This document shows, piece by piece, positions 16,497-29,004 of a stretch of 44,085 bases of DNA. The notes under the pieces are model-generated. The model made no database searches and had not been told where the DNA came from. It saw only the letters and a list, made by a program, of their open reading frames with translations. The number at the start of each line of letters is the position of its first letter. The stretch's first letter is position 1. A program made the position numbers and the translations under genes. The stretch lies in NCBI GenBank assembly GCA_944350285.1, contig CALVOL010000005.1:1-44085 (forward strand), read 5' to 3'. This DNA comes from an uncultured Bacilli bacterium (GTDB taxonomy: Bacteria > Bacillota_I > Bacilli_A > RF39 > UBA660).

Positions 16497-17912
16497 CTAC
16501 GATAACACAAATGGATCACTTTCCTTTCCTGATCCTCCACTAATTTTTACGTCAGAAGATAGATAAATCGTCGGATAAATATGTTCAGAAGGAAAATTAT
16601 TGAGAGAATAAAGAGCAACATTAGTACCAAGATTCATCAACATTGTGTACTTGTCTGAAAGAACATGAGTAAGCAATAGACCACTAAGATCAGAAATCCA
16701 ATCACTACCATAACAGTCAGGACTAGAATTCCAAAACATTAAAGACGTAGTAAGGCATGTTGTTCTGTCCGTTGCACTTCCTCCACTAGTCGCATATCCA
16801 TAATCACTTGGATACATTAAAGCAATTTTTCCAGTCCATGTTAAGGCATTACCAGGATACACTGCATCACTTCTTTCATACTGATACAATTCATTAATAC
16901 CAACTTTATAGGGGTAGTTTTCTTCACTAGAGCTGTCGCTCACGCCTCCTAAATTCCATAGAGCATCGTCAATCATAGATTGGGAAGTAAGATCAAGAGT
17001 ATTAAGATATGTCGTATTTAAATATTCTTGTAAAACGGATTTACTCCAATCATTATTATAACCCGCTGACTGATAAATAAAATTTGCTTTAACTATTTTT
17101 AATCTTGTTTCTTTCTTTCCTGTACCATCATCGATGTGATTCATCACCCCTATAATTCGCCATAACTCATTATTAAAAGAAACATAATTATCAGGATTAG
17201 CCCCAACATATCTTAAATTGTTATCTGAGGTCTCATCGTAAACTAGTTCTTCTGGATTAGATTCAGCTAGTTCCAAAATAACTTCAGAAGCTGTTCTTAT
17301 TTTTTCTTCAATTAATCTTACTGATATTGTTCCTGTAAACGTTTTCCCTTGTTGATCATCTTGGTTCCCGTTGTTTTTATAATGATACACTAAATAATAA
17401 GTAGTTTTTTCTAATGTTGTGACATCAAAGTCTACTTGTTCTAATATAATTTGAGGATTTTCTGTAAGTGTTCCTTGATATACTAATTCTGGACTTCCTG
17501 TAATATTTAAGCTATCTTCTTGATAAATTTGATCATCTTCTAATGTTGGATCTGCTACATTGACTGTTACATGATTTGTGATTGGTTCTGTTGTTTTATA
17601 AAGAAGAACTTCGATATCACCTCGAAATTCTTCTGGAATCGTGGCATCTAAATCAATTTCATAAATACCACGACCTTTATCAGAATCTTTTTCTATCGTA
17701 AACTCTTGTACTCCCATTTGCCCTGGTAATAAATCATAAGAAGTAAATACCTTTGCTCCATCTAGCAAGATACTTCCTAATTCTTCTGTATCCGCATTAA
17801 TACCTGCTTCTTCATTTTGAATACTAGATACAAAATATGCAAATGTTGCTCCTATTGTGGTTACTAATAATACACCAATTGTAGTTAATGCAATGATTGT
17901 ATTCTTTTTCAT
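16497..17912 (-). CDS. Surface protein with TasA/camelysin-type N-terminus
   Basis: Predicted exported protein, about 471 aa. The N-terminus (MKKNTIIALTTIGVLL..IGATFAYF) resembles SipW-dependent TasA/camelysin proteins. A beta-rich domain covers about 45-205. The C-terminal domain has NNELWRIIGVM and ends YPTIYLSSDVKISGGSG..DPF, a type I associate with gut Firmicute surface proteins. I prefer the ATG at 17912 (AAGAAGGG upstream, no overlap) over the ATG at 17942, which overlaps the neighbouring pseudogene. Followed by a terminator. The role in adhesion or matrix is inferred. Confidence 0.7.
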   Translation of the reverse strand: MKKNTIIALTTIGVLLVTTIGATFAYFVSSIQNEEAGINADTEELGSILLDGAKVFTSYDLLPGQMGVQEFTIEKDSDKGRGIYEIDLDATIPEEFRGDIEVLLYKTTEPITNHVTVNVADPTLEDDQIYQEDSLNITGSPELVYQGTLTENPQIILEQVDFDVTTLEKTTYYLVYHYKNNGNQDDQQGKTFTGTISVRLIEEKIRTASEVILELAESNPEELVYDETSDNNLRYVGANPDNYVSFNNELWRIIGVMNHIDDGTGKKETRLKIVKANFIYQSAGYNNDWSKSVLQEYLNTTYLNTLDLTSQSMIDDALWNLGGVSDSSSEENYPYKVGINELYQYERSDAVYPGNALTWTGKIALMYPSDYGYATSGGSATDRTTCLTTSLMFWNSSPDCYGSDWISDLSGLLLTHVLSDKYTMLMNLGTNVALYSLNNFPSEHIYPTIYLSSDVKISGGSGKESDPFVLS

Positions 17913-17928
17913 TTTCTTTCCCTTCTTC

Positions 17929-18399
17929 CTATATTTCTTCATTTGCCAAAAACGGATTTAAAGCAGTTCCGTCACCCAATTTTAAACTATTTGTCTTAAG
18001 GTTAATGACAGGCCGCATGCCGTTCGATTCGAACAGGTTGCTGTAGTACGCAATGCCATTGTTATACGCGAAACGCACATTTGCGCTGTTGAAACTATCG
18101 AAATTAGACGGTGATATAGTCCAATAATAATTCCCTGTATATAAGTAATAATTATAATTTGAACTTCTAAATCTTCCTCCTGCTAATGTTGCTTCATCAC
18201 TAATTGGAGCATTTTTTTGAAGACTGATTTCGTTTTGTTCATTGGCAAGAACGATACTAAAACAACTACTTGCTATTTCATTGATGCCAGTTTGAGTTAG
18301 GGTAAGTCTCCAATAAGCATAGAATAAACCAAGAGTAATAATTAGTAGTCCTAACACTCCTAATGAAATTCATTTTCTATTATTTTCTAATTTTTCCAT
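17929..18399 (-). pseudogene. Broken surface-protein gene with in-frame TGA and apparent internal deletion
   Basis: The natural start is the ATG at 18399 with AGGAG 9 nt upstream. It reads nine codons (MEKLENNRK), then TGA at 18370-18372, then ISLGVLGLLIITLGLFYAYW, a signal anchor. TGG to TGA is the likely mutation. An internal GTG at 18357 could restart translation. The remainder joins a camelysin-like N-terminus (LTLTQTGINEIASSCFS) directly to a short C-terminal piece ending MRPVINLKTN, so the middle of a longer surface protein appears deleted. The downstream surface gene is related in type. Confidence 0.65.
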
Positions 18400-23762: not shown

Positions 23763-25136
23763 TTAAAAGGCTGTTTCTTTCGTTAAGAATTTTTTTAGCT
23801 CCTCTAAAGTCATAACTTTTTGTTCCATAGTATCACGATCTCGAACAGTAACGGTATTATTTTTTAAGGTTTCATCGTCAATGGTAATAGCAAAAGGTGT
23901 TCCAATTGCATCACTTCTTCTATATCTTTTACCAATACTTCCAGACTCGTCATAAGAGCACATAAAGTCTTTAGCTAAATCTCCATAGATTTCCATCGCC
24001 CGTTCTGCATGATGTTTTTTAATAAGTGGCAAAATAGTGACTTTATAAGGTGCCAATGCAGGATGAAGTTTTAAGACAAGTCTTTCCTCCTCACCAACGT
24101 AATCCGTGTGATATGCATCGCATAAAATCGCAAGTATTAAACGATCTAACCCTACAGATGGCTCAATGACATAAGGAAGATATTTTTCGTTTGTTTCTGG
24201 ATCTAGATATCTTAAATCCGCTTTAGAATGCTCCATATGAACAGATAGGTCATAATCTGTGCGGTCAGCAATTCCCCAAAGTTCTCCCCAACCCATCGGA
24301 TAAGCATATTCAATATCAGTCGTTGCTTTGGAATAGAAAGATAGTTCTTCTTTAGCATGGTCTCTAAAACGTAAGTTGTCGGGATTTAATCCTAAGTCTT
24401 TCAAAAATTCCATGCAAGAAGTTTTCCAAAAACCAAACCATTCTAAGTCTGTCCCAGGCTTACAGAAGAACTCTAATTCCATTTGTTCGAATTCCCGAGT
24501 TCGGAATGTAAAGTTTCCCGGAGTGATTTCATTTCGGAAGCTCTTACCTGTTTGACCAATACCAAAAGGAACTTTCGCACGCATAGCTCTTTGAACATTT
24601 AAAAAGTTCACAAAGATTCCTTGGGCAGTTTCCCCACGAAGGTATACCGTACTTTTTGCCTCTTCTGTCACACCTAAATGGGTTTCAAATAATAAGTTAA
24701 ATTTACGAATCGAAGTAAAGTCATGTGCTCCGCAATTAGGACAAAGGATATGATGTTCTTCAATATAACTTTCTAGTTTCTCACTATCCCAGCCATCGCC
24801 AGTTTCTTCTCCATTTGTAAATTCTTCAATTAATTTATCAGCGCGGTGGCGTGTTTTACATTTTTTGCAGTCAATTAGAGGATCAGCAAAACTTGCCACA
24901 TGACCACTTGCCACCCATACTGCTGGGTTCATGAGTATCGCGGCATCTAGTCCATAGTTGTATGGATTTTCTTGAATGAATTTCTTCCACCAAGCACGTC
25001 TCACATTATTTTTTAGTTCTACTCCTAGAGAACCATAATCCCAAGTATTAGAAAGTCCTCCATAGATTTCACTTCCTTGAAAGATATAACCATACTGCTT
25101 ACAGTAATTTACTAATTCTTCCATTGTTAATTTCAT
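23763..25136 (-). CDS. glyQS: Glycyl-tRNA synthetase, homodimeric class II type
   Basis: Charges tRNA-Gly. This is the single-chain (alpha2) enzyme, not the alpha2-beta2 GlyQ/GlyS form. It has a class II core (YGGLSNTWDYGSLGVELK at the start, FRNEITPG, RTREFEQMELEFF, EPSVGLDRL), a zinc-ribbon insert (CKKCKTRHR and CPNCG) and a C-terminal anticodon-binding domain. 457 aa. Start preceded by AGAGGA. It is expressed from its own promoter and a T-box leader immediately upstream, so it is tied to uncharged tRNA-Gly. Confidence 0.96.
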   Translation of the reverse strand: MKLTMEELVNYCKQYGYIFQGSEIYGGLSNTWDYGSLGVELKNNVRRAWWKKFIQENPYNYGLDAAILMNPAVWVASGHVASFADPLIDCKKCKTRHRADKLIEEFTNGEETGDGWDSEKLESYIEEHHILCPNCGAHDFTSIRKFNLLFETHLGVTEEAKSTVYLRGETAQGIFVNFLNVQRAMRAKVPFGIGQTGKSFRNEITPGNFTFRTREFEQMELEFFCKPGTDLEWFGFWKTSCMEFLKDLGLNPDNLRFRDHAKEELSFYSKATTDIEYAYPMGWGELWGIADRTDYDLSVHMEHSKADLRYLDPETNEKYLPYVIEPSVGLDRLILAILCDAYHTDYVGEEERLVLKLHPALAPYKVTILPLIKKHHAERAMEIYGDLAKDFMCSYDESGSIGKRYRRSDAIGTPFAITIDDETLKNNTVTVRDRDTMEQKVMTLEELKKFLTKETAF

Positions 25137-25149
25137 TTTAAAATTCCTC

Positions 25150-25280
25150 TCTTTCTAAAATAAAAATTCTTCTAAAATTCATAGGGACGAGACTAGCCCG
25201 CGGTTCCACCCTATTTATTCTAGAAGAATCACTTTTTTTATATAGCTCCAGTATTCCACACCTTCATCGCTTGTATAATC
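25150..25280 (-). promoter_or_regulatory. T-box riboswitch leader of glyQS (short form)
   Basis: The T-box core TGGAACCGCGGG lies at 25197-25208. The terminator is a long helix: 25209-25229 pairs with 25166-25186 (ATTCTTCT.../...AGAAGAAT and AGGG/CCCT), followed by a T5 run. The competing antiterminator uses the T-box sequence. From the predicted start near 25276 only about 70 nt precede the T-box core, too little for a full-length Stem I. A possible Gly specifier triplet is GGA at 25247-25249, unproven. Confidence 0.85.
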
Positions 25281-25282
25281 AT

Positions 25283-25311
25283 ATTATATGAAAGTTCTTA
25301 AAAAATAGCAA
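25283..25311 (-). promoter_or_regulatory. Sigma-A promoter of glyQS
   Basis: TTGCTA (-35, 25306-25311), 17-bp spacer, TATAAT (-10, 25283-25288). The transcript would begin near 25276, just before the T-box leader. Confidence 0.75.
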
Positions 25312-25330
25312 GAAAATATTTACACTAATT

Positions 25331-27012
25331 TTAATTAGTAGGAGTTAAAACAATACGAAAAGAAACATGATATGCTAAAGTCCCATATACGGAACAAAAC
25401 GACATAACGCCAGATCCTATTCCACCATGCATAGCGCCACCACGCATCACTATAGGATAATCATTATCCATAAAAAAGCCTTCATCCCCATACCAACTAT
25501 TTACCATACGTCTTGAAGAAATATATGTTTGAAACTCAAAAGTACCTAATTCGCCCGTTGCATCTCCCAATATACGATTATAATATGTTGCTTGATTATC
25601 TAAACAAGAAGCATCATAAGAATCATAATACCTACTCTCGGGCAAAGAAAGACCATTAACAGCTGTACCATCTGAAGTCATACCTGCAAAACCTGAGAAA
25701 TTTAAAGTATCTCTTCCTACAATTGCTTGATTATTTCGATCAAAAATAAAAGCCATACTCCAATCCCAAGCATCTCCAGATGTATCAAAAACTCCCAAAA
25801 TATTTCCAGTAGTACTAGCTAAATTACTGTTTGGATAAGAAGTATTACAAGTATTATCTGAACAATATCTGTCACATTCTTCATTTGTGCCAGTATAACC
25901 ACATGTTGGCTCATTATTCGCTTGATATCCTGTTATATAATCTGAATTGTTATTAAGTCTAACACTAGATGAGGAACCATATGCACTATGTTGTAAATAG
26001 GCTACTGCTCCCCATTCAGTATTTTTTGTCATATGAGAATCTAATTTTCTTTTGTAATCATAACTTGCATAGAATGCATTCGCTACAGAAACGCTTCTCC
26101 AACTGTATACATTTGGTTTGATAATTACTTTACTTGAATCATTTTCATTCACTTGAGCTTCTGTAGTACTTGTGGCTCCCTTGTATCCTGTTTCAAATTT
26201 TCCAACCCAAAAGCCTGTACTTGGAATGCTCAAGAATGCTGGGTGTGTCATATAGTCTCCAACTTCACAAGAACCTGTTGCACCAGACTCCATTGGTGTA
26301 CTACATTCTCCATCTACATTATCACTGGTATTATAATCGCCAAAGATAATTGGTATTTCATGAACTTTTGAAGTATCTATTGTAGTCAAACTATCATAAA
26401 GTCCTAAATCCCATAATTGATACCTGTATTTTGGAATCCATACAAAATAACTTTCAATGGCATCTTCCGGAATAATTTCATTAGGTTCATAATTTTTACT
26501 TTCATCTTCTAATATCACGGCATTGGCCCATTTCTTTGTTTCGTAGTCATACCATTCACTTGCTAAATCTGCTTTTCTTACAGTTCCATCATCACTAATG
26601 GTAACCGGTATCAATGGTTCTTCTAATACAGGATCTGTCCCATTTAATAATGGTTCAATATAAGTATCTGTAAAATATAAACTACACTTTACTCTAGTGT
26701 TATCTGTACTTTCATAATTACTATAATTTGTTTTAATTGTCCAATTATTATAATCAAAATCTAGTTCTACTCCATTTGTACAACTACTCTTTGTAAGATC
26801 CAAAGTATACCCGGAATCTTTCTTTGGAATATAACTGATTTGTTCATCTTCTAAATAAATAGCTAATGTATTTTCTTCGTTTTCTTCATTTAAAATAGTT
26901 TCATGATTGGAATTATGTAACATGAAAATACCAATTCCAACTGTTAGTATTAGTAATATAGGATATCTTAGTTTTCTAAAACCCCCCCCCTTAAAAATTT
27001 TTGCCTGTTCAT
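25331..27012 (-). CDS. Large surface protein, frame interrupted at a poly-G tract (probable phase-variable)
   Basis: From the ATG at 27012 (AGGGGA upstream) translation reads MNRQKFLRGGVLEN and stops. With one extra G (or two fewer) in the nine-G tract at 26982-26990 it continues as FRKLRYPILLILTVGIGIF, a signal anchor, straight into the 530-aa body. The in-frame ATG at 26923 would give an anchorless product. The body has CTNGVELDFDYNNW, FVWIPKYRYQLWDLG, and a C-terminal MRGGAMHGG...SFRIVL block like FGE-sulfatase/C-type-lectin folds. Likely cell-surface; ligand unknown. Confidence 0.7.
26982..26990 (-). repeat. Homopolymeric G9 tract (candidate contingency locus)
   Basis: Nine consecutive G on the coding strand (C on the plus strand) within codons 8-11 of the surface-protein gene, in otherwise AT-rich DNA. 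The length as given is out of frame; 7 or 10 G would restore one continuous frame with a membrane anchor. Confidence 0.8.
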
Positions 27013-27036
27013 TGCGATCCCCTACTTTCTATCAAT

Positions 27037-27065
27037 ATTCTACTATAGATTTTTTTAATTGTCTA
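27037..27065 (-). promoter_or_regulatory. Probable promoter of the surface-protein gene
   Basis: TAGACA (-35, 27060-27065), 17-bp spacer, TAGAAT (-10, 27037-27042). It sits 25 bp upstream of the ATG at 27012. Confidence 0.45.
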
Positions 27066-27165
27066 ATTTAATTTGAAGATTTTTTCTTTTTTTTATAGAT
27101 AAGCACAATAAAATAAATTAAACGTAGTGTATTTTCATACATAAGAGAAATTAGAGATTATAAGC

Positions 27166-27945
27166 TTATTTCATCATTCTTTTCATACTGCGAATAGCGT
27201 TTTTCTCAATTCTTGATACCTGTGCTTGACTAATATTTAAGGATTCAGCAATCTCCATTTGAGTTTTACCCACAATATAACGTTCTAACAATATCTTTTG
27301 CTCTCTTTCCTTCAACTTCAATAACGAGCGTTTTAATAGTAACATCGTATCCCGATCATCATTCTGTTCTTTACTATCCGATAACTGATCAAAGAGATAA
27401 ATAGGTTCTCCACCATCATTATAAATAGGTTCAAAAATACTGACTGGTTCTTTTAAAGAATCCAATGCATTACAAATTTGATATGTCGTGACCCCAAAAT
27501 GTTTTGCTAGTTCTTCACAACTAGGCTCAAAGCCTTTTTTTTGCACAAATTCCTCTTTAAACCCCAAAATTTGATATGCGAAATCCTTAATACCCCGACT
27601 AACTCGAACAGAGCTTTGATTATCACGAATAAATCGCTTCACTTCTCCAACAATAAGCGGAATTGCATAGGTACTAAGCTTTAAATTATAACTCAAATCA
27701 AAATTATCAATCGCTTTAATAAGTCCGATAACCCCTACTTGAAATAAGTCATCCATATTATGCTTTTGGCCTCTAAATTTACGTAAAACACTAAGTACAA
27801 GTTTTAAATTACCATTAATTAATTCTTCCTTTGCTAAAGAGTCTCCTTCATGCATTTTTTGAAACAACAGCATCTGTTCCTCATTGCTCAACACTTTTAA
27901 ATTACTAGTATTTACTCCTGTGATTTCTACCTTATATTTTGCCAT
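27166..27945 (-). CDS. sigG: Sporulation sigma factor SigG
   Basis: Late forespore-specific sigma factor. It opens KVEITGVNTSNLKVLSNEEQ, the SigG-type N-terminus, followed by region 2 (NGNLKLVLSVLRKF, DDLFQVGVIGLIKAIDNFDL), region 3, the SigG-typical SIFEPIYNDGGEPIYLFDQ, and region 4 helix-turn-helix (KTQMEIAESLNISQAQVSR). 259 aa, full length. Start preceded by AAAGGAC. It lies 48 bp after the PDZ-Lon gene and may share its transcript. Bacillus sigG follows sigE instead. Confidence 0.95.
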   Translation of the reverse strand: MAKYKVEITGVNTSNLKVLSNEEQMLLFQKMHEGDSLAKEELINGNLKLVLSVLRKFRGQKHNMDDLFQVGVIGLIKAIDNFDLSYNLKLSTYAIPLIVGEVKRFIRDNQSSVRVSRGIKDFAYQILGFKEEFVQKKGFEPSCEELAKHFGVTTYQICNALDSLKEPVSIFEPIYNDGGEPIYLFDQLSDSKEQNDDRDTMLLLKRSLLKLKEREQKILLERYIVGKTQMEIAESLNISQAQVSRIEKNAIRSMKRMMK

Positions 27946-27993
27946 AAAATAAGTCCTTTCCTTTTGTTTATGGGAAAAGACTCTTTATTTTAT

Positions 27994-29004
27994 TCAATTC
28001 AGGGCATTTAATTGTGCAATCGCGTCACTTAAACTATCTACTGATAATAAAATAATATCGTAATCCTTTTCATTTTTCACTTCTAAAGCTTCTTCATAAT
28101 TATCACTTGGAACCAAGAATACATCTGCGCCCTCTCTTACTGCCCCAATCAGTTTATATTTTACCCCTCCGATTGCCCCAACATTACCATCAATATCAAT
28201 CGTGCCAGTTCCAATAACAGTCTTACCCTTAGTAATATCTTCACTTACTAAACTATTATAAATAGCAAGACTCATCATTAATCCTCCAGATGGCCCCGAT
28301 TCACTTTGCTTCATAGTGATGTTTGCACTCGGATCTTCTTCATAATTATAAGTAGTAGTTAGAGCAACCCCAACTTTTACTCCGTCTACCGTGTCATAAA
28401 GAGTAGCATGACATTCTCTCATCTTACCATCACGTTCCACAAGAAAAGTAACTTCATCCCCGGCAGAATAACCTTCTATCAATTTTTTTAACTCTTCCGT
28501 CGAAGATACTTCTACACTATTAACGGATTTTACGACATCTAAAATTTCTAAATCGGTATTAGCTTGTTCATCGATGTAAGTAATATGAACGTTTTCTGAT
28601 TCAACTTCTATCGGAAATCCCGCCAAATGATAAGCAGCAATAATAGCATTATCAATCGATTGTTGAGTAGAAACCTTATCTGCTTCAATCTTTTCTTCCA
28701 TAGTTTCGTTATCATATTTTAACTCACTTTCCGGAACAATATCCCAATCAGGTATCACATAAGACAACAATAAATAAGGAATACTACCTCGAACCATCGA
28801 AACATATGCCATCCCAAGAGTACCATCATACTCATTTCCTTCATCCACACTGACTCTAGTCTTTAGATCTACCATACCACCAGGAGCATAAATCTTATAA
28901 GGAAGTTCTACCAAAAATAGAAGAACTATTACAACTAACACTAAAATAAATTTATAATTTTCTATCCAAAATTGTTTTATTTTTTTGATTCCTTTTTTCA
29001 GAAT
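27994..29004 (-). CDS. PDZ-Lon (S16-type) membrane protease, YlbL-like
   Basis: Membrane-anchored serine protease with one N-terminal helix (FILVLVVIVLLFLVELPY), a PDZ domain, and a C-terminal Lon-like domain with a Ser-Lys dyad: Ser239 in GPSGGLM and Lys284 in GGVKYKLIGA. About 336 aa from the proposed start. The frame extends upstream of the GTG at 28941 to ATT (29004) or CTG (29001), 6 or 9 nt after a perfect AAAGGAGG; no ATG, GTG or TTG lies at that distance. The neighbouring ylbJ supports YlbL-like identity. Confidence 0.85.
   Translation of the reverse strand: MLKKGIKKIKQFWIENYKFILVLVVIVLLFLVELPYKIYAPGGMVDLKTRVSVDEGNEYDGTLGMAYVSMVRGSIPYLLLSYVIPDWDIVPESELKYDNETMEEKIEADKVSTQQSIDNAIIAAYHLAGFPIEVESENVHITYIDEQANTDLEILDVVKSVNSVEVSSTEELKKLIEGYSAGDEVTFLVERDGKMRECHATLYDTVDGVKVGVALTTTYNYEEDPSANITMKQSESGPSGGLMMSLAIYNSLVSEDITKGKTVIGTGTIDIDGNVGAIGGVKYKLIGAVREGADVFLVPSDNYEEALEVKNEKDYDIILLSVDSLSDAIAQLNALN

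Follow-up and report, generated by a model that had tools for sequence, protein, structure and literature searches.

The window analysed here is a stretch of 44,085 nucleotides with a GC content of 31%, taken from contig C5 of a 1.34-Mb assembly of an uncultured Bacilli bacterium that is 84% complete. Its minus strand carries a gene for a membrane-anchored surface protein with a run of nine G residues near the 5′ end; the features of this gene are collected in Table 1. Twenty-two bases separate ATG 27012 from the G9 run. With nine Gs, translation from this start gives MNRQKFLRGGVLEN and then a stop, a product of 14 amino acids that was read directly from the sequence. With 10 or 7 Gs, the same ATG is in frame with a stop-free stretch that ends at 25331, and the protein for n = 10 has about 560 residues. 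It includes the hydrophobic segment LRYPILLILTVGIGIFMLH (mean Kyte-Doolittle value 1.78). For n = 9 no ordinary start codon in the long frame precedes ATG 26923, which is already beyond this segment, and therefore this state should yield no anchored protein. A related gene in which the glycine tract is interrupted (L079, MKKLKKY...QTLGGGFFRKLKIP) uses the equivalent upstream start. The spacer of the window gene's own probable promoter is free of any G tract. The first-pass annotation had described the G9 run in codons 8-11, the start codon, the AGGGGA element and the 14-residue product at n = 9, as well as the opening of a frame of about 560 codons with a membrane anchor at 10 or 7 Gs, and all of these readings held. 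The count of nine is an assembly consensus that could be off by one.

Table 1. Features of the window gene and of the DGR cassette on contig C35 of the same assembly.
Feature	Position	Strand	Remark
G9 homopolymer, codons 8-11	26982-26990	minus	putative translational phase-variation tract; OFF as assembled, in frame if n = 7 or 10
ATG start codon of full-length protein	27010-27012	minus	read directly
AGGGGA, likely ribosome-binding site	27018-27023	minus	read directly
Probable promoter	27037-27066	minus	TTAGAC (27066-27061), 18 bp, TAGAAT (27042-27037); consensus reading only
Hydrophobic signal-anchor segment	26915-26971	minus	start codon reads into segment only when in frame
Surface-protein downstream frame, intact, 549 codons	25331-26981	minus	family expanded in genus
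C-terminal domain, predicted fold of DGR variable proteins (C-type-lectin/FGE type)	25337-26500	minus	pLDDT 92.8; TaqVP Z 19.5
Hypervariable C-terminus (RGGAMHGG...SFRIVLTPTN)	25331-25450	minus	position-equivalent to DGR variable region in relatives
C35 DGR cassette elements (template, target, bAvd-like gene, reverse transcriptase)	L239 4982-5082, 5214-6659, 4385-4756, 3323-4407		

Several other features of the window were recorded. A T-box-like motif (GGTGGAACCGCG, 25180-25215) lies upstream of a glycyl-tRNA synthetase-like gene (23763-25136); an Rfam search of positions 24500-28500, which include this motif, returned no match at the gathering score. Two further anchored surface proteins belong to families that are associated with tracts elsewhere in the genome and have no G tract themselves. 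One (16497-17942) resembles the gene C44b on contig C44, and the other (17929-18357), which appears truncated, resembles the gene on contig C42.

That long G tracts are rare in such AT-rich DNA had also been claimed, and this held. A first-order Markov model predicts 0.36 G/C runs of nine or more nucleotides per 1.34 Mb, and the source genome contains 10 (P ~ 7e-12). When runs of at least eight are counted the spectrum is bimodal, with one G8, one G9, eight G10 and one G11. At every one of these runs the coding strand is the G-rich strand, and the gene that follows encodes in every case a membrane-anchored, presumably secreted protein. The runs fall into two classes. Four are located in the first codons of genes (the window tract on C5 with n = 9, C15 with n = 8, C29 with n = 10 and C42 with n = 10), where a change in length alters the reading frame. 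The other seven (C9, C11, C22, C35, C44 twice and C47) are located between the -35 and -10 elements; each consists of 10-11 Gs, is preceded by TTGAC and is followed by TAYAAT. Here a change in length alters promoter spacing.

All four coding tracts are out of frame as assembled, an outcome with a chance of about 0.2 that systematic miscounting would also produce. One alternative is an error of sequencing or assembly, in which the true tract has 10 (or 7) Gs and the gene is always on. In favour of this view, homopolymer counts in MAGs assembled from short reads can be off by one, and each of the four tracts is one off an in-frame length. However, miscounting would not explain why the tracts exist at all, why they are confined to surface genes or why there is a promoter class, and it would not account for the 7-13 Gs found at conserved flanks across many independent assemblies. 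We therefore regard this explanation as unlikely.

The first-pass annotation had proposed a search for other G tracts at surface genes, and the result is a system that extends throughout the genus. The close relatives identified in a scan of genome contigs are Candidatus Ventrenecus and ‘Bacilli bacterium’ MAGs, mostly from the guts of chickens and other animals. G9 runs are present in 28 of the 30 genus genomes sampled, and at the same sites tract lengths range from 7 to 13, with interrupted forms in addition. Of 37 genus genomes, 32 contain the promoter pattern TTGAC..Gn..TAnnAT, and none contains the reversed pattern that served as control. Among 108 tract promoters the modal tract is 10 Gs (range 8-13) and the modal spacer is 20 bp (range 17-22). 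The lengths before and after the tract compensate for each other (r = -0.80; none of 20000 shuffles was equally tight), as is expected of real promoters under a constraint on spacing. At n = 10 most of these spacers measure 19-20 bp, which exceeds the usual 17 bp; a spacer of 17 bp would need about 7 Gs. Interrupted promoters also exist at 19-20 bp spacing, which hints that the longer spacers may work. Beyond the genus, at least one G9 run was found in 86 of 146 genomes of an order-wide sample, and a stricter promoter pattern was sparse across the phylum (8 of 195 in the sample). Certain other genera have the tract next to the -10 element rather than the -35.

Promoter spacers harbour roughly half or more of the tracts in the catalogue, and this bears on a second alternative. 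Transcription or translation can slip on long G runs, and programmed frameshifting or slippage by RNA polymerase could therefore supply a fixed fraction of full-length protein without any change in the DNA. The conservation of the reading frames is compatible with such a mechanism. However, it has no meaning for tracts in promoter spacers, the coding tracts are found both in and out of frame, and interrupted forms of the tract exist. On this evidence the mechanism is very improbable.

Several additional observations were made on tracts across the genus. Directly 3′ of the -10 element in many tract promoters (for example L082, L085 and L106) there is a short inverted repeat followed by a run of T residues (ttactatgagaaatcatggtaattttttt), which might be an operator or a hairpin in the leader. 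Contigs often terminate at tracts (within 200 bases of one in 9 of 19 cases in genome G016 and 5 of 9 in G013), possibly owing to mixed tract lengths or to repeated flanks, which are inseparable here. At one locus (L200 1523-1582, G012:C33), G17 and G10 tracts lie ahead of a gene for a C5 cytosine DNA methyltransferase (PF00145), which makes it a possible candidate phasevarion. G10 tracts were also noted in an acyltransferase-3 family gene (PF01757; L036 around 1501, G003:C2) and in a gene whose product looks like a membrane protein (L033 around 1501, G009:C4), and it is possible that envelope modification is switched as well.

A comparison of related genomes for length variants, which had likewise been suggested, yielded differences at equivalent sites. 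At the window-type site, conserved flanks enclose tracts of n = 8, 9 and 10 as well as interrupted forms. A second site, located in a signal peptide (LTSLIVL-Gn), has conserved flanks with n = 7, 9, 10 and 11 and is in frame at 9. Between tract promoters whose flanks are identical, the tract differs by 1-2 Gs; three such promoters, with n = 9, 10 and 11, occur within a single genome (G038). Another single genome (G001) carries the same coding site at n = 9 (in frame) and at n = 10 (out of frame). All of this variation is between paralogues and species, not between alleles of one strain or clone. No second allele was found in viral contigs, which contained neither a relative nor the exact window tract. 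The in-frame state is found at about 9 of 33 coding tracts, which matches the one-third predicted for random phase; the start codon is uncertain for a few of them.

Downstream of the tracts the reading frames remain intact, with dN/dS values of 0.13-0.31 for eleven pairs, which indicates that purifying selection still acts on genes whose assembled copy is out of frame. These values are rough, as dS is near saturation. They bear on a third alternative, namely a fixed frameshift that has left the window gene as a pseudogene within an expanded family. The family is indeed large and includes partial and stop-containing copies, and the window gene is out of frame. Against this, its 549 codons are free of stops, its dN/dS relative to its relatives is 0.16-0.31, and many paralogues are out of frame at similar tracts with their downstream frames still open. 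A pseudogene is therefore very unlikely. Loss of mismatch repair was considered as a cause of tract instability and was rejected because mutS and mutL are both present. MutS and MutL are intact in the source genome, and the rate of slippage may thus be modest.

Given the surface-gene-only excess of G runs, their placement, the length differences at the same sites, the selected intact frames and the interrupted forms, we consider it very likely that the G9 run is a slipped-strand ON/OFF switch within a genus-wide set of poly-G loci. The claim of a slipped-strand contingency locus is supported by every check open to sequence data, and reversible switching within a population, or a clone, remains an inference from sequence alone. 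That the locus was captured in its OFF state holds for the assembly, in which n = 9 is out of frame, subject to the consensus nature of the exact count. The proposed role in antigenicity or adhesion is still inferred, as are surface exposure and a function as ligand or antigen. The first-pass annotation missed both the promoter-class tracts and the link to DGRs described below.

The window family has no significant match in sequence searches of Pfam, NCBIfam or the PDB, and the assignment of a fold therefore rests on structure only. The C-terminal 388 residues were modelled from 82 relatives with a pLDDT of 92.8; an earlier model from 12 sequences reached only 38. The predicted fold is like that of the DGR variable proteins TaqVP (5vf4), which is the best structural match, Mtd (1yu0-1yu4; Z about 11) and TvpA (2y3c; 11.4), and formylglycine-generating enzymes are also among the weaker matches (Z 10-12 overall). 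The most variable part of the family is the end of the protein. No template matching the variable region of the window gene was found in its own assembly (84% complete), and so we do not call this gene an active DGR target. Its link to DGRs is a prediction made by analogy, through family membership only.

A DGR is present elsewhere in the source genome. Contig C35 carries, on one strand and in this order, a G11 promoter, a surface gene, a 101-base template that is a copy of the 3′ region of the surface gene, a bAvd-like gene and a reverse transcriptase gene. All 19 substitutions between the template and its own variable region fall at template adenines (chance about 2e-10). The same is true of all 17 substitutions relative to the variable region of the C9 gene, which lies behind a G10 promoter on a different contig (chance about 2e-9). 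The reverse transcriptase matches RVT_1 (1.4e-20) and contains the GxxxSQ motif of DGR enzymes (GLPIGNLSSQ); its frame has one break in the assembly. The bAvd-like protein scores 39.7 bits against a cut-off of 40 (bAvd, 7.7e-10). These elements are like those of known DGRs. The reverse transcriptase encoded on contig C17 was rejected as a DGR type on the basis of its motif (QGAVSSP).

Related reverse transcriptases occur in 25 of 37 genus genomes, and templates with adenine-specific differences were found for window-family members in two genomes. In G010 the target has a window-type C-terminus (15 of 15 differences at A), and in G034 the promoter of a window-family target carries a G9 tract, with 19 of 22 differences at A. 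G034 contains two more targets, one with a G10 coding tract (13 of 13 at A) and one with a G11 tract in mid-gene (24 of 27 at A). A G10 coding tract was likewise found in a G001 target, with 16 of 18 differences at A, and poly-G tracts and DGRs therefore coincide in two species besides the source. Several genes under poly-G control are thus DGR targets, as shown by the adenine-specific differences between templates and variable regions. Where the target gene is complete in its contig, a G tract accompanies five DGR loci and is absent from four, a count that leaves out most other loci, which are cut by contig ends.

Three other DGR loci deserve mention. One (L242 274-3400, G003:C5) contains a tandem series of at least eight template-like copies at intervals of about 370-400 bases; a DGR reverse transcriptase lies downstream of them, and the locus is possibly a multi-template DGR. 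At another (L110 2724-2731, G033:C12), a G8 tract is located within a small gene like the N-terminal domain of MutS, beside DGR reverse transcriptases, and this accessory protein may itself be phase-variable. In a third (L262 5130, G009:C62), a DGR template and the start of a MutS-like gene are missing at a G11 run, a gap that is probably an assembly join.

The mechanism we propose is that gain or loss of G residues by replication slippage would shift the frame of a membrane-anchored surface receptor, such that one-third of tract lengths would give the anchored protein of about 560 amino acids and the remaining lengths a short stub. Across the genus, poly-G loci would act in two ways, through the frame when located in the 5′ coding sequence and through promoter spacing when located in the gap between -35 and -10. 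The switched proteins mostly come from expanded families whose members are anchored and hypervariable at the C-terminus, and in these bacteria a coarse switch that determines which receptor is made appears to be combined with a fine mutator of what that receptor binds. A bolder reading is that poly-G tracts and DGRs form one integrated, two-tier system, in which slippage picks the receptor to be displayed out of dozens, the DGR rewrites its binding face and the mutator may itself be phase-variable. The last element is suggested by the C35 template, Avd and reverse transcriptase, which lie downstream of the same poly-G promoter. We hold this reading only tentatively and would not favour it at present.

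Slipped-strand phase variation as known from Neisseria and Campylobacter directly explains the coding class, and the promoter class through spacing. Translational phase variation of poly-G/C contingency genes is established in Neisseria, Campylobacter and Helicobacter (PMC6321876, PMC2823697, PMC5320596). As in those genera, the tracts described here lie near the 5′ ends of surface genes, every third length is in frame and there are many loci per genome. In contrast, the host is an uncultured member of the Bacilli, a Gram-positive lineage, with MutS and MutL intact, and the switched proteins are anchored by a single span, many with a DGR variable-protein fold or variable region. The homopolymers between the -35 and -10 elements of Neisseria porA and fetA (PMC5320596; van der Ende 1995 as cited there) are similar in that tract length sets the promoter spacing of surface-protein genes. 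Unlike them, tract promoters here number dozens per genome in some species, with a typical spacing of 19-20 bp at n = 10 and TGn before the -10 element in most. Known DGR variable proteins differ in that the target gene here is under a poly-G switch, and the window gene has no template in the assembly.

The DGR literature sets the two diversity generators against each other as alternatives (PMC3521204). In the open-licence literature that we searched, no paper linked RF39 to phase variation, and none described DGR targets whose phase varies through a homopolymer. Each ingredient is known. What is new, within the limits of the searchable literature, is that the phenomenon reaches this scale in uncultured Bacilli of one genus and that it is coupled to DGRs. 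Textbooks describe large poly-G phasomes for a few Gram-negative pathogens, and one of comparable size is found here in a genus of uncultured Bacilli, mostly from animal guts such as those of chickens. It readily escapes notice, since annotation reports out-of-frame genes as fragments and contigs are prone to stop at the tracts. Its combination with DGRs places two known diversity generators on the same genes, and it opens a question for existing read data, namely whether tract lengths are mixed within hosts and whether the receptors that are expressed are those that have been rewritten.
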